Shown: piece by piece, positions 3,373 to 41,751 of the stretch
Numbering within the stretch: the first letter of the stretch is position 1
How the letters are laid out: every line of letters begins with the position of its first letter
From: Candidatus Yaniella excrementigallinarum
GTDB lineage: Bacteria; Actinomycetota; Actinomycetes; Actinomycetales; Micrococcaceae
Length of the DNA: 47,606 nt
Direction: 5' to 3'
Assembly (NCBI GenBank): GCA_019113675.1
Contig: DXHA01000078.1
Span: 1-47,606, forward strand
Made by a program: the position numbers and the translations under genes
Notes under the pieces: model-generated
What the model was told of the DNA's origin: nothing
Seen by the model: the letters and a program-made list of their open reading frames with translations, nothing else
Database searches by the model: none

Positions 3373-4810
3373 GCCCTGGCAGCAGAAAATACGCCAGAAT
3401 CCCCCAGCACATAGCGGTTACCGCCAGTACCGGAATCGTAACGGCCAGCAACCGGCCGCGAGTCACATGTGGTCCCTCGTCCTGCATCGACGGGCCCACG
3501 GCCAACTGATAGGCCAATTCAATACGCGCCGGCGAAGCGATTGTACCCCAACACCCGGCCGCGTTATTCAAGGCCATCGACCATTGCGGGTGAATATCCA
3601 ATTGCGTACCAACGGCAACCTGGGTGGGACCAAACATCGCGTTGGTGCCGGTTCCGGAAGCAGTCATATACCCGCCTAATGCCCCGATGACGGGCATCAA
3701 AAAGATATACCCGTCGCCTAAATCGGCCAGTGATTGGGCTAGTGTTTCGGCGATATGGCCGCCCTGCATAACGACGCCGAAACAAATATACAACGCGGTA
3801 GGCACCCCGGTGTTCAACCATAAACGCCAGGCATCCGGGGCTAGACCTGGAGTGGGACGCCGATACTGCGCCAAGGCCACTCCCACGCCGGTGAATGCGT
3901 AAAGTGCCGGGCTAGAAATCACTTCGGATAACCAACCGATTGGTAGCATGCCGGCCAGTAATTGTCCGGCAATGGTGCCCACCACCAACACCGCATACGG
4001 GATAATGGATCCGCCGGGACCGGGCCGCAGCTTACCTTTCCGCGTTACCAACAACCATCCCAGTGACACCAGCGCTGAAGCCACCGCACCGGCCACCGGG
4101 GTGCCAAGCAGCACGTTGGAGCTGAACACCAATACGGCCAATACCAGCCCGGACAATGCCCCGATACCCAGATAGCCCAGCCGTTTCGCACCGGTAACTT
4201 TTGCCGCTCTGGCGGCCACAAATGCGGCAACGGCACCGGAAATAATAAATGCCGGGAAGTTGGCGACGGCAGAGGCGATGCCCATACCAGTCAAACTCTG
4301 GCCTGCCAGTTCAGCGCCCAATAGGGTGCCGGGCCCCATCGAACCCCACGGCCCAATAGCGATGCCCATCAGGGTAATCAACGCGGCATGATAGGCGTTG
4401 AAGCCGAAGGCCAGGGTCAATGGCAACCCGATAATTAGTGACACACCGAAACCGGTTACCGCTTCCATAAACGGCACCACACCGTTGGCCATTAACAGGG
4501 CCGAGCCCAGTGAGGCGCCCCCGGCAGCCAGCCAGTCAGCCAACTGTTTTTGCGCCCCGGTACGATCCATGGTCCGCGCTAGCGTGACACCGCCGCCAAT
4601 GATGGCCAGCACTTTCAGCATCGTCACCAACGAGTCACCCACCGTACCGACCAGTTCATCCACGTTCGCATCCAGAACGCCCAGTCCAACGGCGATAGCG
4701 GTCGCAACCCCGGCAACCGGTGGCACCCATGCGGGCAGTCGCGTTAGTAGCAGCCCAATCACCACGACAACGGGTACGGCAGCCAGCACCACGGACACGA
4801 AAACACTCAC
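3359..4810 (-). CDS. L-lactate permease family transporter (LctP)
   Basis: Polytopic inner-membrane protein of 483 residues, close to the usual LctP length though shorter than the ~530-550 residue versions. The family signature is visible near residue 110 (NGVVPFMEAVTGFGVSLIIG), followed by the small-residue-rich GIAIGPWGSMGPGTLLG segment. About 12-13 hydrophobic segments can be counted. Known members import L-lactate or glycolate with protons. The annotated start is GTG 4810, very close to GGAAGG; the GTG four codons later (4798) has better spacing and is a possible alternative. It is divergently transcribed from the YeeE-TusA gene across a 187-bp spacer. No lactate dehydrogenase genes adjoin it, so the substrate is inferred from the family only. 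Confidence 0.85.
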   Translation of the reverse strand: MSVFVSVVLAAVPVVVVIGLLLTRLPAWVPPVAGVATAIAVGLGVLDANVDELVGTVGDSLVTMLKVLAIIGGGVTLARTMDRTGAQKQLADWLAAGGASLGSALLMANGVVPFMEAVTGFGVSLIIGLPLTLAFGFNAYHAALITLMGIAIGPWGSMGPGTLLGAELAGQSLTGMGIASAVANFPAFIISGAVAAFVAARAAKVTGAKRLGYLGIGALSGLVLAVLVFSSNVLLGTPVAGAVASALVSLGWLLVTRKGKLRPGPGGSIIPYAVLVVGTIAGQLLAGMLPIGWLSEVISSPALYAFTGVGVALAQYRRPTPGLAPDAWRLWLNTGVPTALYICFGVVMQGGHIAETLAQSLADLGDGYIFLMPVIGALGGYMTASGTGTNAMFGPTQVAVGTQLDIHPQWSMALNNAAGCWGTIASPARIELAYQLAVGPSMQDEGPHVTRGRLLAVTIPVLAVTAMCWGILAYFLLPGLAAV

Positions 4811-4997: not shown

Positions 4998-6407
4998 ATG
5001 ATTCTTACCGGTTTAGTAGTCGGTGCCGTACTGGGCGTTGTGATGCAGCGCGGCAGATTTTGCGTCACCGGCATGATTCGTGACATTTTCATGCAGCGCT
5101 CCTGGCGCACATTTGTTGCGCTGCTTATCGTCATCTCTATCCACGCGGTCGGGCTTGCCGCGCTGACCTCCACCGGCGTCATTTCCCCGGAATACAGTAC
5201 GTTTGCACCCGGCGCCGTCGTCGTCGGTGGTTTTCTGTTCGGGTTGGGCATTATCTTGGCCGGTGGTTGTGCTTCTGGCACCTGGTACCGCTCCGCCGAG
5301 GGCCTGGTGGGTTCCTGGATCGCGCTGGCAATGTACGCACTGTCGGCTGCAATGATGAAAACCGGGGCGCTGGCCGGCTTCAACGACTGGATGAAATCCT
5401 GGGACACCGGCCTGACCACGCTACCCGAGGCATTTGGTATCTCGGCTTGGTGGTTCGCCATTGCAATCAGTGTGCTCACCATCATTCTGGTACGCCATTT
5501 TCAGGCTCAGAACGCCAAAGCGCCGCAAGTGGCACGACTAGGCAACCGGCCGGCGTGGAAACGTCCGTTGTCGCTGTATACCGCGGGCGCACTGGTGGGG
5601 CTGCTGGGCGTAATTGCTTGGCCACTATCGGCAGCCAGCGGACGCAATAGCGGTCTGGGCATTACCACCCCAACGGCCAATACGCTGCAATACTCGGTCA
5701 CCGGCGAAAATAGCTACATCGACTGGGGTGTCATGCTTGTGTTGGGCCTGCTGGTTGGCGCGTTCATTGCCGCCAAAGTTACCGGTGAGTTCCGCATTCG
5801 GGTGCCCGATGCCACCACGGCAGTACGCTCCGTGGCCGGCGGTATGCTCATGGGTGTCGGCGCGTCACTGGCCGGTGGTTGCACGGTGGGCAACGGCATG
5901 GTGGAAACCAGTCTGTTTAGTTTTCAGGGTTGGGTTGCCCTAGTATTCATCGCCGTTGGTATTGGCGTCGGAGCTAAATTCTGGCTCAAACCCGCAAAAC
6001 CCGCAAAAACCACCCAAGCTACCAACCGCACTAGTGCCCCCGCCACTCCGGGCAATCCTGCTGCAAGCTTTGTCGGAGTACAGGCGGTCAATATGCCCAG
6101 TCTCGATACGACGACGGCCCGCGATCTTGGTGATGGCTATTTCGCGTTAGATTCACTGGGCGCGGTGTGCCCCTTCCCGCTACTTGAGGCGAAGGACGCC
6201 ATAGCCGAATTAGCCCCCGGACAACACTTGGTCATCGACTTTGATTGCACCCAAGGCACCGAGACCATCCCGCAATGGGCCGTAGACGACGGCCACGAGG
6301 TCACCGATTTTCACGAAACCGGTGAGGCCTCCTGGCAAATCACCATCCAGAAGGGCGAACCCGTCAAAACGTCGTCGGCACGATCGTCGTCATCAATCTC
6401 ATCCTGA
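4998..6407 (+). CDS. YeeE/YedE-family sulfur transporter fused to a TusA domain
   Basis: A 469-residue fusion. Residues 1-~335 are a polytopic YeeE/YedE (TsuA-like) permease with the family's conserved cysteines in RGRFCVTG (Cys22), GGCASGTWYR and GGCTVGNG. After a Pro/Ala/Thr-rich linker, residues ~379-455 form a TusA/SirA-like domain with the sulfur-carrying Cys-Pro motif (VCPFPLLEAK, Cys near 391). TsuA-type proteins import thiosulfate and pass sulfur to a separate TusA-like protein (TsuB); here both are one polypeptide. The start is set by GAAAGGCAGG upstream of ATG 4998. The C-terminal Ser-rich tail is not part of the domain. Substrate (thiosulfate or another sulfur species) is inferred from the family. 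The window contains other sulfur-linked genes, but none beside it. Confidence 0.85.
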   Translation: MILTGLVVGAVLGVVMQRGRFCVTGMIRDIFMQRSWRTFVALLIVISIHAVGLAALTSTGVISPEYSTFAPGAVVVGGFLFGLGIILAGGCASGTWYRSAEGLVGSWIALAMYALSAAMMKTGALAGFNDWMKSWDTGLTTLPEAFGISAWWFAIAISVLTIILVRHFQAQNAKAPQVARLGNRPAWKRPLSLYTAGALVGLLGVIAWPLSAASGRNSGLGITTPTANTLQYSVTGENSYIDWGVMLVLGLLVGAFIAAKVTGEFRIRVPDATTAVRSVAGGMLMGVGASLAGGCTVGNGMVETSLFSFQGWVALVFIAVGIGVGAKFWLKPAKPAKTTQATNRTSAPATPGNPAASFVGVQAVNMPSLDTTTARDLGDGYFALDSLGAVCPFPLLEAKDAIAELAPGQHLVIDFDCTQGTETIPQWAVDDGHEVTDFHETGEASWQITIQKGEPVKTSSARSSSSISS

Positions 6408-14496: not shown

Positions 14497-15975
14497 TTAG
14501 TCCGACGACGACGTCGCACCGGACAGGTTGACGCCCAAGACATCTGCCTTGCTGCGCTCGGTGGCCGCCGCACTGTAATCGGAAAATGCGCCACGATACT
14601 GTGCTGCCGGATGCGAAGCAGGAAGCCGATCAGCCCCGGTAAAGCGGCTTCGAAGCGTGACACCGTTTTGTAGTTGCAGGTCTTCGGCACTGCGGGCCAT
14701 ACCGCGGCGGCGCAGTTCGGGAATGATGTGGTCAATGAATTCCACATAGCTACCCGGCAGGGTGGCATTAATGACGTTGACCCCGTCAATACCGGCGTCC
14801 TGCCAGGCTTCCAGTTCATCCACAATTTGTTCCGGAGTACCGGTAATCCGCGTTGCCTGGGCTCGGAAGCGTGCCAGGTCACGGACGGTCATGGTGCCGT
14901 CGGGAGTCATTTTCTGTAATTCAGCCAGATGACCGCGGGCCCCCTCGGTCCTCAGCTCACCGATGGGCGTATCCAGGGGTAAATAACCCATATCGATGCC
15001 CAGGCTACCGCCAGTATGGGCGATCAGCGCGTGGTCATCTAAGGATTCGTCGAGCTCAGCTGCTTTAGCTGCAGCTTCCGCCTCGGTGGAACCAATGACA
15101 AAAGATAATCCTTGAATAAACTTCACATCTTGTCCCCGACGCCCGAATGCTACGGCACGACGACGTACATCTGCGGCGTGTTCTTGTGCTTGTTTGCGCT
15201 GGGGTGCCATGGAAAATGTTGCTTCGGCATGTTGTGCGGCCACATCTCTACCTCTGGGTGACGAGCCAGCCTGGAAGAGCAGCGGGGTCCGCTGCGGGGA
15301 GGGGGAAGATAAATGCGGGCCTTCCACCTGATAGTTTGCGCTGCTGTGATGAATTTTTGCGACCTTTGCCGGATCGGCATGCAATCCTATGCCGCGATCA
15401 TGCTCTAAGGTTTTATCAGCTAACAGTGCGTCGTCGTCCCAGGAACCTTCCCAGAGTTTGTAGCACACCTCAAGGTATTCTTCAGCCCGATCATAGCGGT
15501 CACCATGTTGTGCCAGCCCGGTACCACCGTAATTTCGGTGAGCGTTTTCAAGGGCGGAGGTAACCACGTTCCAGCCGACCCGTCCCCCGCTCAGATGGTC
15601 TAGGGTACTGAGCTGGCGGGCAAAGGTATACGGGTGAGTTTGGATAACCGACGAGGTGAGTGCCAACCCAATGCGCTGAGTGGTGGCCGCCAGTGCCGAT
15701 AGTAATACCAGTGGGTCATTGGCCGGGATTTGTAGGCCGCGGCGCAGATGGGAGGCCCAACCGCCTTCGTGATCGCCGTATACCCCGACCACATCGGCAA
15801 AAAACGCGATATCGAATCCCCCGTTTTCCAGGGTTTGTACCAGGTCAACCCAGTGTTGCAATTCGTTGAACCGGTGTTGTTGGGCCTCATCGTTACGCCA
15901 TACGCCACCCAGAATATGACTGGTGGTGTTCATCATGAAGGCCGATAAGATCAGTGGACGGCGAGGCTGTGACAC
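14497..15975 (-). CDS. NtaA/SnaA/DszA-family flavin-dependent monooxygenase
   Basis: A 492-residue bacterial-luciferase-like monooxygenase that uses FMNH2 from a separate reductase. Family features are the NELQHWVDLVQTLENGGFD start, FFADVVGVYG, and STLDHLSGGRVGWNVVTS near residues 130-147. Known members oxidise sulfur or nitrogen heterocycles and related compounds (dibenzothiophene sulfone, nitrilotriacetate, pristinamycin). GTG 15975 follows AGGAG. It starts 24 bases after the second metQ stop, so it appears to be part of the SAM-riboswitch-controlled methionine-uptake operon. This suggests oxidation of an organosulfur compound to release sulfur or methionine-related products. Another member of the same family lies at 36642-37943 behind a TPP riboswitch. 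Confidence 0.87.
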   Translation of the reverse strand: MSQPRRPLILSAFMMNTTSHILGGVWRNDEAQQHRFNELQHWVDLVQTLENGGFDIAFFADVVGVYGDHEGGWASHLRRGLQIPANDPLVLLSALAATTQRIGLALTSSVIQTHPYTFARQLSTLDHLSGGRVGWNVVTSALENAHRNYGGTGLAQHGDRYDRAEEYLEVCYKLWEGSWDDDALLADKTLEHDRGIGLHADPAKVAKIHHSSANYQVEGPHLSSPSPQRTPLLFQAGSSPRGRDVAAQHAEATFSMAPQRKQAQEHAADVRRRAVAFGRRGQDVKFIQGLSFVIGSTEAEAAAKAAELDESLDDHALIAHTGGSLGIDMGYLPLDTPIGELRTEGARGHLAELQKMTPDGTMTVRDLARFRAQATRITGTPEQIVDELEAWQDAGIDGVNVINATLPGSYVEFIDHIIPELRRRGMARSAEDLQLQNGVTLRSRFTGADRLPASHPAAQYRGAFSDYSAAATERSKADVLGVNLSGATSSSD

Positions 15976-19387: not shown

Positions 19388-19407
19388 GAAATCACTCCAT
19401 TGCTCCT

Positions 19408-19480
19408 GGCCTTAGCACCGTCCGTGGGACACGGGGTTGCTGCGACTTCAACGAGCCAGATCTCTCAGTCGCTCTAAATG
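19408..19480 (-). promoter_or_regulatory. SAM riboswitch (S-box/SAM-I clan) upstream of metN
   Basis: On the minus strand the leader carries the S-box core: GCGACT pairs with AGTCGC to form P2, with the kink-turn-like GAGAGA opposite TGA, then the conserved GCAACC, and a downstream GGTGCTAAGGCC matching the P4/J4-1 consensus GGTGC.AA. The metN ribosome-binding site follows about 15 nt after the aptamer, so control may be translational. Its position before methionine-transport genes supports the call. I cannot distinguish the SAM-I from the SAM-I/IV subclass by eye. Confidence 0.82.
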
Positions 19481-19494
19481 GTTAGGTTTTCACA

Positions 19495-35448: not shown

Positions 35449-35479
35449 TTGACGGGGATGGCTATGTTCTAGCTATAGT
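35449..35479 (+). promoter_or_regulatory. Predicted promoter of the first TPP-riboswitch transcript
   Basis: TTGACG (35449-35454) and TATAGT (35474-35479) are separated by 19 bp. Transcription would begin at about 35486, right at the 5' edge of the TPP aptamer. The spacing is slightly long. Confidence 0.5.
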
Positions 35480-35484
35480 AGGTA

Positions 35485-35565
35485 GCGGACACGGGGTGCG
35501 CCTTCTGGCGCTGAGAGAATACCCGTTGAACCTGATCTAGTTTGGACTAGCGAAGGGATGTTTGC
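35485..35565 (+). promoter_or_regulatory. TPP riboswitch (THI element) 1
   Basis: Conserved THI-box sequences are in order: ACGGGGTGCG, CTGAGAGAATACCC, TTGAACCTGATCTAGTT, and ACTAGCGAAGGGATG. P1 can form between GCGGACA (35485-35491) and TGTTTGC (35559-35565). It senses thiamine pyrophosphate. The next gene in the same direction, an SDR, begins about 300 bases later and is followed by a flavin monooxygenase, so both are probably thiamine-controlled. No thi gene is immediately downstream. Confidence 0.93.
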
Positions 35566-35864
35566 AGGTGTTTTTGCACGCCAAAACTTTCTTAACCGGT
35601 CTTATCGGACCACACCATCACCGCCACCTGGTATTTTTTGCGCCACCCTTTGGCAGTACTCAACGGTACGTTCAGCCATGGTGCAAAGCAGTAACGCACT
35701 GGAATCATCACGTATCTGCAAGTTATCAGCGTCTTAACTAAGCCTGCGGCTCTATCATGCCGTAGCAGGCAGCATCGCGATGTCACGATTTCATTTTCAC
35801 GGCACACCTAACTGTGTGCCCTCTACATGATCTGCCATGTGCAGTTACGAAAGTTAGGCCAGAA
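35566..35864 (+). other. 299-bp leader after TPP riboswitch 1
   Basis: A reading frame from ATG 35559 runs 58 codons but has no recognisable domain; ATG 35559 lies within the aptamer's P1. The rest is lower in GC. It could be a long expression platform or the remains of a lost thiamine-linked gene. No intrinsic terminator was found. Confidence 0.4.
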
Positions 35865-36629
35865 TTGGATATTTCTGAACAAGTTGTTCTCGTTACCGGT
35901 GGCGCCCGCGGGTTGGGCCGACACATCGTCGAATCGTTTGCTGGCCAAGGGGCCCGCATCGTCGTTAATTATCGCCAGAGTCAGCAGGCGGCCAAAGACC
36001 TCGCAGCCGTTTATGGACCGGAATATGCTCTGACCGTGCGCAGTGATGTGACCGACCCGGAGCAGGTCAGCGCCATGTTCCAAACTGCACATGATCACTT
36101 CGGTGCCCCGATCACCACGGTGGTAAATAATGCACTGGTTGATTTCTCTTTTAACGGTGACGCCCGCCTCGGGGCCGAAACCATTGGGTGGGAGAATTTC
36201 GATGGACAGTTCACCGGCAGTGTCCGCGGCGCATTAAATACTGTTCAAGCCGCAGTGCCTGGCATGCGTGAACGAGGCTTCGGGCGCGTCATCAACATCG
36301 GTACCAATCTATTCCAGGACCCGGTGGTCCCCTATCACGACTACACAGCTGCCAAAGCAGCCTTGTTATCGTTGACCCGCACCCTGGCAGCAGATCTGGG
36401 CCCACACCAGATTTCTGTGAATATGGTGTCCGGCGGCTTATTACAAACCACGGATGCCAGCGCCGCAACCCCCGATGAGGTCTTTGATTTCATTGCATCG
36501 TCTACCCCGCTGCGCAAAGCAACTACACCGGCGGAATTTGCCGATGCCATCCTGTTCTTTGCCTCACCGTGGGCCAGAGCTGTCACCGGCCAGAATTTGG
36601 TTGTTGATGGCGGTCTGGTGATGAATTAG
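35865..36629 (+). CDS. SDR-family oxidoreductase, TPP-riboswitch associated
   Basis: 254-residue short-chain dehydrogenase/reductase. It has the cofactor motif TGGARGLGRH (residues ~12-21), the NNA motif variant VVNNALV, and the catalytic YTAAK with Tyr and Lys in place; the C-terminus ends with DGGLVMN. Start: TTG 35865 fits the family length and has AGG upstream; GTG 35814 is in frame but adds residues without homology-like content. It lies downstream of a TPP riboswitch and immediately upstream of a flavin monooxygenase, suggesting the two act in sequence on a thiamine-related compound. The substrate is unknown. Confidence 0.82.
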   Translation: MDISEQVVLVTGGARGLGRHIVESFAGQGARIVVNYRQSQQAAKDLAAVYGPEYALTVRSDVTDPEQVSAMFQTAHDHFGAPITTVVNNALVDFSFNGDARLGAETIGWENFDGQFTGSVRGALNTVQAAVPGMRERGFGRVINIGTNLFQDPVVPYHDYTAAKAALLSLTRTLAADLGPHQISVNMVSGGLLQTTDASAATPDEVFDFIASSTPLRKATTPAEFADAILFFASPWARAVTGQNLVVDGGLVMN

Positions 36630-36641
36630 GTGGCGGCCAAG

Positions 36642-37943
36642 ATGAACACACGGCAATTACATTTCAACGCTTTTCTTTATGGTTGTGGCCATCATCAGGC
36701 TGCCTGGCGGCTTCCAGGTTCTTCGGTGGAACAGCTAGGGGAGATCACCTATTATGAACGTTTAGCGCAAACCGCTGAAGCAGGACTCTTTGACGCAATA
36801 TTTTTTGCCGATGGACAATCTGTGAGCAACCCGGCTGTCGGACCGCAGTGGAGTTTAGAACCGCTCACCGCCTTGGCCGCAATCGCCGGCAACACCAGTC
36901 GGATCGGACTTATTTGTACTGTATCCACGACGTTTCACACCCCGTTTCACGCCGCACGGATGTTGGCCTCACTGGACCACATCAGCCAGGGACGGATTGG
37001 TTGGAATGTGGTGACATCAATGTTCGATGCCGAGGCGCGAAACCATTCAATGGAGCAGATGCCCGCCAGCGCCCAACGCTATGTCCGAGCCGCCGAATTT
37101 ATTGATGTCGCTTTGGCCCTGTGGGATTCTTGGGACGACGATGCGGTGGTTGCACAGCGTAACGGAGACTTCGCCGATGCAGCAAAGATTCATCCGGTGG
37201 ATCATGCCGGGAAGCATTTTCAGGTAGCTGGCCCGCTGAACATACCGCGTGGCCCACAGGGCCGTCCGGTTTTATTCCAGGCTGGGGCCTCAGAATCGGG
37301 ACGTGACTTAGCGGCCCGGTATGCCGAGGGCATCTACGCTGTTGCCTACGACCTGGCCAGTGGACAACAATATTATGCCGACGTGAAACAACGCATTGCA
37401 TCCTACGGCCGGGACCCTGGCAGTGTGCCCATCATGCCAGGGCTCGTCACCTTTTTGGGCTCCACAGAGGCTGAGGCGCGAGCAAAACAGGCGGAAGTCG
37501 ATGCGTTGCTCCCCGTGAAGCACTCCTTGGCGCAATTGGGTACGTTTATTGGCCAGGACTGCAGTGATTGGGAACTTGATGCGCCCGTTCCTGATCTACC
37601 TCCGGCCACCGAGTTTTCGGGTCCGCAGGGTAGGTATGCCACCATATTGCGCATTGTGGAGTCAGAACGCCCCACGGTGCGCCAACTACTGGGCAGACTA
37701 GCTGCCGGCGGGGGCCACTGCACCATGGTGGGCACCCCGGAACACGTGGCCGACACGATCGAAGAATGGTTCACCTCAGGTGCCGCCGATGGTTTTAACC
37801 TGATGCCACCGTTGCTGCCCGATGCCCTGGAAGAGTTCATTGATCGGGTGGTGCCACTACTCCAGCGTCGTGGCCTGTACCGGACCGAATATTCTGCTAC
37901 CACGCTACGAGGACATCTGGGATTGGAGCGGCCTACCGGCTAA
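36642..37943 (+). CDS. NtaA/SnaA/DszA-family flavin monooxygenase, TPP-riboswitch associated
   Basis: 433-residue FMNH2-dependent luciferase-like monooxygenase. It starts LHFNAFLYGCGHHQAAWR, contains FDAIFFADGQ and ASLDHISQGRIGWNVVTSMF, and ends with a typical VPLLQRRG. Known relatives attack sulfur- or nitrogen-containing rings and side chains. ATG 36642 lies 12 bases after the SDR stop; GTG 36630 is an alternative in-frame start. With the SDR it forms a two-gene unit behind TPP riboswitch 1. A thiamine-regulated ring-oxidising enzyme next to thiamine salvage genes suggests processing of a thiazole- or pyrimidine-type precursor or breakdown product; this is inference. Confidence 0.85.
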   Translation: MNTRQLHFNAFLYGCGHHQAAWRLPGSSVEQLGEITYYERLAQTAEAGLFDAIFFADGQSVSNPAVGPQWSLEPLTALAAIAGNTSRIGLICTVSTTFHTPFHAARMLASLDHISQGRIGWNVVTSMFDAEARNHSMEQMPASAQRYVRAAEFIDVALALWDSWDDDAVVAQRNGDFADAAKIHPVDHAGKHFQVAGPLNIPRGPQGRPVLFQAGASESGRDLAARYAEGIYAVAYDLASGQQYYADVKQRIASYGRDPGSVPIMPGLVTFLGSTEAEARAKQAEVDALLPVKHSLAQLGTFIGQDCSDWELDAPVPDLPPATEFSGPQGRYATILRIVESERPTVRQLLGRLAAGGGHCTMVGTPEHVADTIEEWFTSGAADGFNLMPPLLPDALEEFIDRVVPLLQRRGLYRTEYSATTLRGHLGLERPTG

Positions 37944-37980
37944 TTTTTCTGCACCAAAAAAGTAGTCGCAGATGCTTTGC

Positions 37981-38058
37981 GGACACGGGGTGCGTTGGAT
38001 AAGCGCTGAGATACAACCCGTGGAACCTGCTCTAGTTTGTACTAGCGAAGGGATGTCC
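37981..38058 (+). promoter_or_regulatory. TPP riboswitch (THI element) 2 upstream of thiD
   Basis: Contains ACGGGGTGCG, GCTGAGATACAACCC, GTGGAACCTGCTCTAGTT and ACTAGCGAAGGGATG in the standard order. P1 forms between GGACA (37981-37985) and TGTCC (38054-38058). The ribosome-binding bases AAGGG lie inside the conserved 3' aptamer strand with thiD ATG at 38062, so ligand binding should hide them and block translation directly. Confidence 0.95.
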
Positions 38059-38061
38059 TCC

Positions 38062-38952
38062 ATGACTTCATTGAATTCTTCTTCCGTTCCTCGCGTTCTA
38101 TCGATCGCCGGAACTGATCCATCCGGTGGTGCTGGCACCGCCGCGGATCTGAAATCTATTACTGCAGCCGGGGGCTACGGTATGGCCGTGGTGACCTCAC
38201 TGGTTGCACAAAATACCCACGGGGTACGAGATATTCATGTTCCCCCTACCGAGTTTCTTACCGCCCAGCTACAAGCGGTCAGTGACGACGTGGTTATCGA
38301 TGCGCTCAAGACGGGCATGCTAGGCACCGTAGAGATTATCGAAACGGTTGCCGCCTGGCTCGATGATCAGCCACCAACCGTCTTGGTGGTCGACCCGGTA
38401 ATGGTGGCAACCAGCGGCGACCGGCTGGTGGATCAACAGGCTGAGCAAGCCATGATCGAATTTTGTGCTCGGGCGACCGTGGTGACGCCAAATATCGACG
38501 AGCTTGCGGTGCTGACCGGCAGCGAGCCGGCCCTCGATGAAGCCCAGGCCCTGAATCAGGCAGCTGCTTGGGCCAGCGATACCGGCGTTTCAGTTGTGGT
38601 CAAGACCGGTCATTTGTTCTCGCATTGGACAACGAATACGTGGGTCTCCCCCGATGGCACACGCCATCCGGTGTATGCAACTCGTCTACAAAGTACGAGC
38701 ACCCACGGCACCGGGTGTTCATTGTCTGCGGCACTAGCCACCCGCCTTGGCGCCGGCGATAGCCCTGGCACCGCGCTATCTTGGGCCACTCAGTGGCTCC
38801 ACGAAGCCATTAAACATGGCGAAGCCCTCCATGTCGGCTCAGGTCACGGCCCGGTAGATCATTCCTACCGGGCCCGACAACTACAAGGCTGGACCATTGA
38901 GGCGCCATCGGATGAAGCCGCCCAGCCGACCGCGGTCAAAGGAGGATCCTGA
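38062..38952 (+). CDS. thiD: Hydroxymethylpyrimidine/phosphomethylpyrimidine kinase ThiD
   Basis: 296-residue kinase that phosphorylates HMP and then HMP-P in thiamine pyrimidine synthesis or salvage. Ribokinase-fold landmarks are AGTDPSGGAG near the N-terminus, ALKTGML, VDPVMVATSG, TPNIDELAVL, and the anion-hole motif STHGTGCSLSAAL near residues 213-225. ATG 38062 has AAGGG nine bases upstream; ATG 38053 would overlap the aptamer. It is the first gene of the operon thiD-MFS-thiM-thiE under TPP riboswitch 2, and its stop overlaps the next start (TGATG). Confidence 0.94.
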   Translation: MTSLNSSSVPRVLSIAGTDPSGGAGTAADLKSITAAGGYGMAVVTSLVAQNTHGVRDIHVPPTEFLTAQLQAVSDDVVIDALKTGMLGTVEIIETVAAWLDDQPPTVLVVDPVMVATSGDRLVDQQAEQAMIEFCARATVVTPNIDELAVLTGSEPALDEAQALNQAAAWASDTGVSVVVKTGHLFSHWTTNTWVSPDGTRHPVYATRLQSTSTHGTGCSLSAALATRLGAGDSPGTALSWATQWLHEAIKHGEALHVGSGHGPVDHSYRARQLQGWTIEAPSDEAAQPTAVKGGS

Positions 38953-40322
38953 TGACTGCCTCGACCATCGACACATCGTCGGCGGCCACTAAACTCAGTG
39001 ACCTGCCGCCGGAAGGACGGGCAGCTCTGCGTGCCGGTGTGGTAGGTAATTGGATCGATAATATCCACGTATTTTTGCCCTTGACCGCACTGGCCCCGGC
39101 GATGCTTGTCTTGGCTGGCCCAGCCGTTACAGCATCTACCGCGGCCTTGGTGGTAGTCGCGATGCTCTTTGGTCGTCCACTTGGTGGATTAGTGTTTGGG
39201 CGACTGGCCGATCGTCTCGGGCGCACCCGCACCACACGTATCGCCGTCGGCGGCACCGCTGCTTGCGCCCTAGCCATCGCCGCTATGCCAACCTATGAGG
39301 TTCTTGGTGGCTGGACGATCGTGGGCATCTTAGTGTTACGGTTTCTCGGCGGCATATTCGTGGCCGGTCAGTATTCAGCAGCTATCCCCCTGGCCATGGA
39401 ATGGTCCACCCCGCGCCGTCGCGGCTTGATGAGCGGAATGATCCTGTCGATGGCACCGTGGGCACAAGCAAGCATCGCCTTTGCCGTTACCGGGCTGCTG
39501 ATCGTTATTGGCCCGGAAGCCTACGCCACTTGGGGTTGGCGAGTGCTATTCGTTATTGGTGCGCTACTATCTGTTGGCTTGCTGATTTATTATGGTCGCC
39601 AGGTCACTGATGCGCCGGTATTTCATCGGCAGACCAGAGCTGCAGCCCAAAAACCCGGTACGCGGCGACCAGGGCTGGCCGATGTGCTCACCGGGCGGTG
39701 GGCACCAACTTTTTGGCAGGTCTTTCTGCTCATGACGGGCTTATGGTTGCTCACGAATAGTACCGTGCTGTTACTAACTGAACGGTTAGGAACAGATACC
39801 GGATTTAGCGCCACCAACGTATCCTTGACCATGGGCATCGCCTCGGTAGCACAGGCAATCGCAATGGCTTGTGCCGGGCATCTATCCACATACTTGGGAC
39901 GACGCAATTTATTCCTGCTATGGGGGCTGGCCACCACGCTCTTTGCCCCGGTTATCTGGTGGTTTGCGGTGACCTCGTCAGCACTTGGCCAGGCAGTTGT
40001 TTTCGCCGCCCTACTGCAGGTGATCACCGTGGCGGCTTACGGCCCGGTTTCGGCGTATCTTTCCGAGCGGTTCCCCACCGAAATACGTTCGACCGGCTAT
40101 GGCATGGCCTATAGCTTCTCGCTGATACTACCGGCGCTGTATCCGTTTTATCTTCCCCTGGTAGAAACCATGCTTGGCCGCCACGGCTCGGTTATGGCAC
40201 TGGTTGGCTTAGGCGGAGTATTACTGGTGTTGGGGGCTATTCTCGGACCGAAACTATCACCACGAGACATCAGCCATGACATCGACGTCGTCGCGGCCAA
40301 TACCGCAGCGCATCCTGAATGA
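38952..40322 (+). CDS. MFS transporter in the thiamine operon (candidate precursor permease)
   Basis: 456-residue major facilitator of the metabolite:H+ symporter type, with 12 TM segments. Signature loops are visible: GRLADRLGRTRTTR between TM2 and TM3, TPRRRGLMSGM between TM4 and TM5, and the repeat ATYLGRR-like turn (HLSTYLGRRN) in the second half. It starts inside the thiD stop with GGAGG upstream and its stop overlaps thiM, so it is translated as part of the thiamine operon. Location and TPP control suggest import of HMP, thiazole or thiamine. This is a strong contextual prediction but not a family-level assignment. Confidence 0.87.
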   Translation: MTASTIDTSSAATKLSDLPPEGRAALRAGVVGNWIDNIHVFLPLTALAPAMLVLAGPAVTASTAALVVVAMLFGRPLGGLVFGRLADRLGRTRTTRIAVGGTAACALAIAAMPTYEVLGGWTIVGILVLRFLGGIFVAGQYSAAIPLAMEWSTPRRRGLMSGMILSMAPWAQASIAFAVTGLLIVIGPEAYATWGWRVLFVIGALLSVGLLIYYGRQVTDAPVFHRQTRAAAQKPGTRRPGLADVLTGRWAPTFWQVFLLMTGLWLLTNSTVLLLTERLGTDTGFSATNVSLTMGIASVAQAIAMACAGHLSTYLGRRNLFLLWGLATTLFAPVIWWFAVTSSALGQAVVFAALLQVITVAAYGPVSAYLSERFPTEIRSTGYGMAYSFSLILPALYPFYLPLVETMLGRHGSVMALVGLGGVLLVLGAILGPKLSPRDISHDIDVVAANTAAHPE

Positions 40323-41110
40323 GAGACCAACTCATGCCTACCTCCGATCCTGATATCCGGCACATTGCCGAGATTATTGACGCCGTGCGTGTGCGTGAGC
40401 CGCTAGTCCATTGCATCACCGCAACCGTGTCGATGGGGATCGTGGCTGACGGGCTCCTGGCAGCAGGTGCCCGTCCCATGATGACCGAAACTCTGCACGA
40501 AGCACCCGTGTTGACGACCATTGCCGATGCACTGTTAATTAACTTGGGCACCCTGAGCACCGATGCGCTGGAGGGTATCCCGGCTACGGTGGCCGCGGCA
40601 GTAGAAGCCGGACATCCGTGGGTGCTTGATCCCACTGCGATTGGGGTGGCCCCGGTCCGTACACCATTGGCCCGCGAGCTGCTGGAATCTCATCCCACGG
40701 TTGTGCGTGGTAATGCCTCCGAGGTGTTAGCCCTTGCCGGGTCGGGTTCCGGTGGCCGCGGGGCAGATTCCAGTGCCACACCGGATATGGCCTCTAACGC
40801 CGCCGAAGTAGTTGCCCACCACACCGGTGGTACCGTGACTGTGTCAGGCAGCCGTGATCTAATCTTCGACGGCGTCCACCAGACTCGTGTGGACCGGGGA
40901 ACACCTATGCTCACCCGGGTCACTGGCACCGGCTGCTTACACGCCGCATTAACGGCGGCCTGCGCCACGGCAACCCAGGACAGCTTCAAGGCTGCTCATG
41001 CGGCCACAACTTGGCTCAACGTGGCCGGCGAAATCGCAGCCCAACGAGCAGCGGGCCCCGGATCCTTCCGAATGCATTTACTTGATGCACTAGCTGAGGT
41101 TGGAAAATGA
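40319..41110 (+). CDS. thiM: Hydroxyethylthiazole kinase ThiM
   Basis: 263-residue kinase for salvage of 4-methyl-5-(2-hydroxyethyl)thiazole. It shows the family start RVREPLVHCITATVSMG, the ARPMM segment, LLINLGTLS, GHPWVLDPTAIG and the catalytic VTGTGCLHAALTAAC. ATG 40319 overlaps the transporter stop (ATGA); ATG 40334 is a possible shorter start. It supplies thiazole phosphate to ThiE encoded next, and its stop overlaps the thiE start. Confidence 0.93.
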   Translation: MRDQLMPTSDPDIRHIAEIIDAVRVREPLVHCITATVSMGIVADGLLAAGARPMMTETLHEAPVLTTIADALLINLGTLSTDALEGIPATVAAAVEAGHPWVLDPTAIGVAPVRTPLARELLESHPTVVRGNASEVLALAGSGSGGRGADSSATPDMASNAAEVVAHHTGGTVTVSGSRDLIFDGVHQTRVDRGTPMLTRVTGTGCLHAALTAACATATQDSFKAAHAATTWLNVAGEIAAQRAAGPGSFRMHLLDALAEVGK

Positions 41111-41751
41111 ACTTAGATTTGCGCTGCTACCTGGTCACCTCCGGTAGCGGGTACGACACCATCAACGCCGCAGCCGAAGCTGCCCGGGCCGGCGCCGGCA
41201 TCATTCAGGTGCGCGGCAAAGACCTATCCACCGCCGAACTATTTTCCTTGACCTGTGCTGTCGCCGACTCGGTGCACACCACAAACCCGCAAACCCGTGT
41301 GGTGGTTAACGATCGAGTCGACGTCGTATTGGCAGCACGAGATGCCGGTGTGCCCGTCCACGGTGTGCACCTGGGCCAAGATGATTTACCGGCCACCAAT
41401 GCGCGGGCAGTACTGGGCACGGAGGCAATCGTCGGTCTATCTGCTGGCAGCCTGGAACTTGTCCGCCAAGCCGATACACACCGTGAGGCGATCGACTATC
41501 TGGGTGTTGGACCATTTCGGCCCACGCCCACCAAAGGTACCGGACGCCAACCGTTGGGTCTGGCCAGCTACCCGCAGATTGTCGAAGCCACGCGGTTGCC
41601 CATCGTCGCTATTGGAGGCATCAGCCTGGACGACGTCGAAGAACTGGCCCGCACCGGTATTGCTGGTGTGGCTTTAGTGCGGGCAATCATGGATGCCGAA
41701 CAACCCGGTGACGTCGTGGCGGAGGTGTTAGCGCGAATGCAGCACACCTGA
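41107..41751 (+). CDS. thiE: Thiamine-phosphate synthase ThiE
   Basis: 214-residue TIM-barrel enzyme joining HMP-PP and thiazole phosphate to make thiamine phosphate. It contains GAGIIQVRGKDL, VNDRVDVVLAARDAGVPVHGVHLGQDDLP, DYLGVGPFRPTPTK and the phosphate-binding VAIGGI. Its ATG overlaps the thiM stop (ATGA). With ThiD and ThiM it completes a salvage route; no thiC, thiG or thiazole-synthesis genes are in the window. Confidence 0.94.
   Translation: MNLDLRCYLVTSGSGYDTINAAAEAARAGAGIIQVRGKDLSTAELFSLTCAVADSVHTTNPQTRVVVNDRVDVVLAARDAGVPVHGVHLGQDDLPATNARAVLGTEAIVGLSAGSLELVRQADTHREAIDYLGVGPFRPTPTKGTGRQPLGLASYPQIVEATRLPIVAIGGISLDDVEELARTGIAGVALVRAIMDAEQPGDVVAEVLARMQHT

Follow-up and report, generated by a model that had tools for sequence, protein, structure and literature searches.

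In bacterial thiamine synthesis ThiC leads to the pyrimidine half of the vitamin and ThiG to the thiazole half. Two described systems come close to the one treated here. The thiaminase II TenA recovers the pyrimidine half, and in Bacillota its gene is controlled by a thiamine pyrophosphate (TPP) riboswitch, as stated in PMC12452182. The alkylcysteine sulfoxide C-S monooxygenase CmoJ converts benzyl-type cysteine sulfoxides such as S-benzylcysteine sulfoxide into a benzaldehyde-type aldehyde and a sulfenic acid, according to the main text of its description (PMC10863075). Here we analyze a stretch of 47,606 nucleotides from the actinomycete Candidatus Yaniella excrementigallinarum (contig DXHA01000078.1 of assembly GCA_019113675.1; hereafter the window), in which a TPP riboswitch is followed by genes for a short-chain dehydrogenase/reductase (SDR) and a flavin-dependent monooxygenase. 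The first-pass annotation of this DNA had noticed the arrangement; the observation holds, and its reach extends far beyond the window. What can be read directly from the DNA is the TPP link, the gene order, the conservation, the co-occurrence with other genes in genomes and an exchange of one dehydrogenase type for another; judged by this context, the pair is almost certainly a thiamine-acquisition module.

Occurrence of the pair and its riboswitch

A first sample of at least 80 loci was drawn from one genome per species, chosen by monooxygenase similarity alone. TPP riboswitches were sought with an RNA covariance model of 11 base pairs built from 24 TPP aptamers, partly from these same loci, which scored one locus described below (L221) too low, and Rfam's own models were run on the window and part of the loci. 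Among the matches listed, a scope that applies to all counts from this sample, an SDR gene adjoins the monooxygenase gene in 33 of 80 loci. These 33 pairs and L024 (together L005-L036, L038 and L047) are the clade loci of the first sample, and a TPP riboswitch is linked to all 34, lying directly upstream of SDR and monooxygenase in 31, directly before the monooxygenase gene alone in L024, and in two (L016 and L031) at the start of a thi operon whose final genes are the pair. Rfam's own model confirmed all ten loci submitted to it. None of the 46 less similar homologues has an adjacent TPP riboswitch, 45 being without a match and one showing 29.7 bits at a distance of 4 kb, and none of 20 paralogue loci from congeners gave a TPP match.

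A second sample, drawn independently of the window, comprised 250 genomes of the Bacillota order to which the host of L016 belongs. An orthologue scoring above 700 bits is carried by 24 of these genomes (eight of which overlap the first sample), the next best match reaching 328 bits, and all 24 orthologues are TPP-linked: 18 have the riboswitch in their flank, including L207 and L208, where the pair and a TPP-led tenI-thiG-thiF operon point away from each other, and six lie inside operons of the order TPP-tenI-thiO-thiG-thiF-SDR-monooxygenase. For the order of the window's host, 248 genomes were searched with another monooxygenase and 30 loci were fetched, the clade members obtained in this way being a lower bound. 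Six were found besides the window and its two pair-bearing congeners (L086 and L087). Loci L178, L185, L189 and L180 were first noticed through their TPP match; all 30 loci were then compared with the window proteins, and this comparison added L183 and L179, which had no TPP match at first scan and showed sub-cut-off matches once longer stretches (L221 and L223) were used. The first-pass annotation had proposed a search for the pair behind TPP riboswitches in other actinobacteria, and it is there, directly downstream in L178, L185 and L189 and by way of a thi operon in L211. Confinement of the pair to the window's genus within Actinomycetota, which the 80 loci of the first sample suggested, is contradicted by these further actinomycete loci and a Rhodococcus plasmid. 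All four plasmid copies counted (Pseudochrobactrum, Rhodococcus, Mesobacillus and Exiguobacterium; three further Pseudochrobactrum records are left out of the count) carry their SDR gene downstream of a TPP riboswitch.

In total, at least 63 clade loci (34 + 16 + 9 + 4) are distributed over Actinomycetota, Pseudomonadota and Bacillota, four of them on plasmids. The first-pass annotation had named a pair occurring mostly without TPP riboswitches in related genomes as an outcome that would count against its reading; the opposite is the case, with a clear TPP link in 61 of the 63 loci among the matches listed, 54 of them direct and seven through a TPP-led thi operon. The remaining two comprise one match just below the cut-off in a thi operon (53.3 bits) and one weak match (33.5 bits). 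A chance TPP match is ruled out by the recurrence across samples and plasmids. The partner of the monooxygenase gene is an SDR gene in 59 loci and a zinc alcohol dehydrogenase gene in two, and two loci (L024 and L209) have none. A tree of 121 monooxygenases, built by a quick method, places 62 clade rows on one fully supported branch apart from the 59 others; the two alcohol dehydrogenase-partnered enzymes fall inside this branch. An earlier tree agrees, and the loci marked as solo in it (L002 and L115) end short of the SDR gene.

In the congeners G006, G004 and G008 a TPP riboswitch directly precedes the gene of another NtaA/DszA-type monooxygenase, which belongs to a distant branch, has no SDR beside it and finds its best match among solved structures in DszA. 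The copy in G003 is interrupted, and G001 shows a short match to a remnant. The loci concerned are L107 (1314-2748), L108 (minus strand), L134, L131/L114 and L136.

The window locus, its leader and its enzymes

All features of the window locus lie on the plus strand:

35449-35479, +, sigma-70-like promoter TTGACG-19-TATAGT
35482-35575, +, TPP riboswitch aptamer 1 (short-form THI element lacking P3)
35576-35864, +, leader from aptamer 1 to the SDR gene, 289 nt, poorly conserved and without a convincing terminator
35865-36629, +, SDR (NF006393/PRK08642), TTG start by homology; an in-frame GTG at 35814 is possible
36630-37943, +, NtaA/DmoA-type (MoxC/YtnJ-like) FMN-dependent monooxygenase (PF00296, TIGR03860), with an in-frame ATG at 36642
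37976-38070, +, TPP riboswitch aptamer 2
38062-38952, +, thiD, kinase for 4-amino-5-hydroxymethyl-2-methylpyrimidine (HMP) and its phosphate HMP-P (PF08543, TIGR00097 above cut-off), start inferred from sequence
38952-40322, +, major facilitator superfamily (MFS) transporter in the thi operon (PF07690)
40319-41110, +, thiM, hydroxyethylthiazole kinase (PF02110, NF006830 above cut-off)
41107-41751, +, thiE, thiamine-phosphate synthase (PF02581, NF000740 above cut-off)

Both aptamers match positions 1-105 of Rfam model RF00059 with the optional P3 stem missing, aptamer 1 at 68.9 bits (E 1.4e-11, gathering score 54.3), recovered also in an RF00059 search of the window's own genome, and aptamer 2 at 68.7 bits. 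The monooxygenase start abuts the SDR stop (36629/36630) on the same strand, and Pfam and NCBIfam profiles give the order thiD-MFS-thiM-thiE after aptamer 2. Thus the earlier description of a complete THI element followed by an SDR and a flavin monooxygenase on one strand, with a second THI element and a thiamine salvage operon right after them, is borne out by both RNA and protein family models. The promoter that it had predicted was also recovered: a standard scan of the window with spacers of 16-18 gave none at 35449-35479, where the spacer is 19, and a wider scan found TTGACG-19-TATAGT, ending two bases upstream of the aptamer 1 match. The two congeners with the pair have TTGACG-19-TATAGT and TTGACC-19-TATCAT at the corresponding position, to within one base.

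Among the 39 leaders examined from Bacillota with a direct link, 33 have, by hand count, a strong hairpin followed by a T run between aptamer and SDR gene. Its 5' arm carries CAACTTTCC-like letters that are complementary to the last helix of the aptamer, as expected for TPP-induced termination. Of the five leaders from Pseudomonadota, those of L006, L007 and L009 showed no such hairpin, nor did three actinomycete leaders (L178, L185 and L189); weak stems only were found in the leaders of L005, L086, L087 and the window, and L008 has, by eye, a hairpin with seven T directly before the start. The window leader shows no convincing terminator: a consensus scan returned none on the plus strand, and a laxer scan one weak 6-base stem. 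A leader open reading frame (ORF) from the ATG at 35558, in the aptamer tail, was likewise set aside, as by eye it is not retained in the two congeners. That TPP represses the pair in the window is the direction of regulation that we infer. In L017, two TPP riboswitches occur in one cassette, at 4525-4627 before the SDR gene and at 5659-5761 between SDR and monooxygenase genes.

The SDR belongs to PF13561/PF00106 and scores 435.6 bits with NF006393 against a cut-off of 292, which the SDRs of L016, L005 and L178 also exceed; its TTG start at 35865 aligns with an ATG in the congeners. Classical SDRs have a glycine motif, a Tyr-x3-Lys motif and a catalytic Ser, for which Thr may stand in. Across 63 sequences (55 distinct loci and eight second copies) Tyr and Lys are kept in all, the glycine motif is kept with one end gap, and a Thr (Thr-Asn) occupies the usual place of the catalytic Ser in all 63, a departure from the classical motif. 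The best match among solved structures is (S)-1-phenylethanol dehydrogenase, barely ahead of many others. The monooxygenase (PF00296) scores 539.8 bits with TIGR03860 (NtaA/DmoA; cut-off 279.7) and is by family predicted to be an FMNH2- and O2-dependent enzyme; its nearest solved structures are those of MoxC/YtnJ (6ask/1yw1/1tvl; ~349 bits, E ~3e-103, query 10-435). Residues that distinguish the clade from 52 other homologues, in an alignment without the later-found actinomycete members, include His139, Leu112, Tyr236, Val238 and Gly361; His139 is not universal in the clade, being Phe in L221. The window and G001 sequences are under purifying selection (dN/dS ~0.06-0.07; dN 0.12-0.13 and dS 1.7-2.2, the latter near saturation).

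Elsewhere in the window there is an S-adenosylmethionine (SAM) riboswitch (19394-19484, minus strand) and a further NtaA-type monooxygenase gene (14497-15975, minus strand), whose product is ~39% identical to the monooxygenase of the pair. The congener G001 has a SAM riboswitch beside the TPP riboswitch of its pair, on the opposite strand (L086 34-134, minus strand), and in the congener G008 the thiD gene that a TPP riboswitch precedes encodes a fusion with a TenA domain (L216 2882-4507). Elsewhere in the window's genome, a TPP match of 54.0 bits, just below the cut-off, precedes a ThiB-like substrate-binding gene, and a further one precedes a 225-aa ORF without an NCBIfam match.

Genome content and the proposed route

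The first-pass annotation had left it open whether the precursor is of a thiazole or a pyrimidine type; genome content favors the pyrimidine. Of 59 clade genomes (34 + 16 + 9, plasmid hosts left out), 33 have ThiG without ThiC, 13 have both, 13 have neither and none has ThiC alone, and the loss of ThiC with retention of ThiG (33 versus 0) points to the HMP branch. Within the 250-genome set, ThiG without ThiC is found in 15 of the 24 genomes with the clade and in 32 of the 226 without it (Fisher P 6e-7). When only ThiG-bearing genomes of this set are considered, 15 of the 18 with the clade lack ThiC, compared with 32 of the 65 without it (P 0.014). A TenA match was obtained in 45 of the 57 clade genomes searched for one; the window genome gave no match to ThiC, ThiG or TenA (the last at E 1e-10).

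Gene neighborhoods tie the pair to several thi gene sets. In seven genomes a thiazole-synthesis operon closes with the monooxygenase gene and its partner, L029 has the order TPP-SDR-monooxygenase-thiM-thiD-thiE, and L211 has TPP-thiM-thiE-SDR-monooxygenase. ThiV-type symporters are predicted HMP carriers. A TPP-led sodium:solute symporter gene is divergent from the pair in the Pseudomonadota loci L006 (3341-4822, minus strand) and L007 (3367-4812, minus strand), and in L005 (7440-8891, minus strand), from the same phylum, the pair converges on such a gene. In L221, where the operon reads thiO-thiG-thiF-dehydrogenase-monooxygenase and the TPP match reaches 53.3 bits against the cut-off of 54.3, and in L223, the SDR is missing and a zinc-type alcohol dehydrogenase gene (PF08240, PF00107; L221 4512-5522 and L223 3811-4842, both minus strand) stands directly before the monooxygenase gene. 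That an alcohol dehydrogenase unrelated to the SDR takes its place is as expected if the partner does a carbonyl/alcohol step. By the ThiC and ThiG counts the pair probably acts in the pyrimidine branch.

The earlier proposal of a thiamine-repressed conversion pathway thus has a strong regulatory link behind it, and its conversion step can be framed as follows; here we infer both the branch and the two reactions. When TPP is scarce, the riboswitch would permit expression of both genes. The monooxygenase, using O2 and FMNH2 from a general reductase, may act on a scavenged (4-amino-2-methylpyrimidin-5-yl)methyl compound, for example a thiol or amine conjugate from thiamine breakdown, and cut its exocyclic C-S or C-N bond to give the 5-formylpyrimidine, which the SDR (in two relatives the zinc alcohol dehydrogenase) would reduce to HMP. 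ThiD would then phosphorylate HMP, and ThiE would join it to a thiazole that comes from ThiG or, by salvage, from ThiM. Since a (4-amino-2-methylpyrimidin-5-yl)methyl thioether closely resembles a benzyl thioether, the reaction of CmoJ would, on such a substrate, give the 5-formylpyrimidine. This C-S/C-N cleavage to an aldehyde with subsequent reduction to HMP, an analogy, we hold to be possible at slightly under even probability, an estimate raised a little because the alcohol dehydrogenase exchange was found; that the pair is a portable TPP-repressed cassette feeding the HMP branch by oxidative pyrimidine salvage seems to us, from gene context, an evenly balanced proposition.

Several observations weigh against this proposal or its parts. 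The Fisher value overstates independence because the genomes share ancestry, and in the window's own order ThiG without ThiC is found in only three of seven clade genomes (seven being a lower bound), compared with 26 of 241 others. With 13 of 59 clade genomes retaining ThiC and 13 lacking ThiG, the cassette is not bound to one deficiency, and some genomes (L005, L008 and L020) are incomplete metagenome-assembled genomes, so that absences there are weak. Gene content need not equal prototrophy either: Staphylococcus xylosus needs thiamine, according to one report (PMC8617998), and its relative S. pseudoxylosus carries ThiC, ThiG and the pair. At the level of loci, the closeness of thiM to the pair in three of them (the window, L029 and L211) lends the thiazole side some probability, the TPP match of L223 is weak, and in L024 and L209 the clade monooxygenase gene lies directly behind the riboswitch with no partner gene in the fetched DNA. 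No recurrent flavin reductase was seen among 20 neighbor proteins annotated by Pfam, although L009 has a gene of FAD-binding reductase type downstream of its monooxygenase gene. One Planococcus copy (L031/G035) has an internal stop, and the monooxygenase gene on the Exiguobacterium plasmid is broken. Lastly, the chemical analogy presumes that MoxC/YtnJ is the CmoJ of Bacillus subtilis.

Alternative readings and known systems

The same genome counts bear on a more far-reaching idea, that the TPP-dehydrogenase-monooxygenase unit is an oxygen-dependent, ThiC-free pyrimidine source, present in three phyla and partly plasmid-borne, with which thiazole makers would dispense with ThiC; we consider this unlikely. 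The form in which the pair would replace ThiC outright, with de novo synthesis of HMP out of a common metabolite by an oxygen-dependent route, is unlikely too. It would account for the 33 of 59 clade genomes with ThiG and without ThiC and for the seven genomes whose thiazole-synthesis operon ends in the monooxygenase and its partner. However, 13 of 59 genomes hold both ThiC and the clade, which weakens a simple replacement of ThiC, two enzymes are few for assembling a pyrimidine, and the window genome has no ThiG either; moreover, 32 of 226 genomes without the clade have ThiG and no ThiC, so HMP can be obtained otherwise.

A role on the thiazole side, in which an oxidized or alkylated thiazole is converted into hydroxyethylthiazole for ThiM, draws on thiM in the same or a neighboring operon (the window, L029 and L211) and on the sulfur-compound oxygenases within the monooxygenase family. 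It is rather improbable, as 46 of 59 genomes own ThiG, the loss hits ThiC and not ThiG (33 versus 0), and in seven genomes the gene sits inside a thiazole-synthesis operon. Regeneration of intact thiamine from an altered form, whether oxidized, S-alkylated or otherwise blocked, would fit TPP control, the presence of the pair alongside many different thi gene sets and the ThiB-like gene behind the 54.0-bit TPP match in the window's genome; to this reading, too, we assign a low probability, for the link with retained ThiG and lost ThiC (15 of 24 versus 32 of 226) is unexpected if the product is thiamine. That the SDR is a fatty-acid reductase (3-oxoacyl-ACP reductase) in an incidental neighborhood, as the NF006393 name and the plasmid annotations would have it, is very improbable given the TPP link in three phyla and on four plasmids, the several different thi operons and the Thr-Asn that all 63 SDR sequences carry where a Ser is usual.

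Surveys of THI elements reportedly list unassigned oxidoreductases, and an earlier mention of the pair in a table is possible. The remark of the first-pass annotation that no described pathway holds this pair fits the literature searched, in which we found no description of it, the coverage being incomplete, above all for subscription journals and for regulon tables such as RegPrecise. The main text of a riboswitch regulon survey contains neither 'monooxygenase' nor 'oxidoreductase' (PMC3766115).

Many bacteria make the thiazole half without ThiC, and their pyrimidine source is often unclear; the cassette is a direct candidate for it. If oxidative pyrimidine salvage by the pair is true, oxidative chemistry joins thiamine salvage, the misleading database name 3-oxoacyl-ACP reductase is corrected, and the prediction of thiamine needs from genomes is altered.

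TenA likewise recovers the pyrimidine half of thiamine, and does so by hydrolysis, which depends on neither oxygen nor flavin. Neither the SDR nor the monooxygenase matches TenA, which sets the cassette apart from TenA/YlmB salvage. The solved members of the NtaA/DmoA/DszA family (TIGR03860) are enzymes for chelators, alkanes and organosulfur compounds, whereas the clade described here is TPP-linked. Similarly, the name given to NF006393/PRK08642 is generic, and the context of the cassette SDR suggests a place in the metabolism of thiamine and not of lipids. A close relation to CmoJ is possible, in that MoxC/YtnJ is the best PDB match of the window monooxygenase, though far from identical, and the two share an RNHS segment, whose His is replaced by Phe in 52 of 52 homologues outside the clade. 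The main text of the CmoJ paper does not contain 'thiamin' and describes salvage of cysteine (PMC10863075). In place of the cysteine-salvage gene context of CmoJ, the clade loci show a thi/TPP context, the monooxygenase gene being TPP-controlled and accompanied by a dehydrogenase partner.

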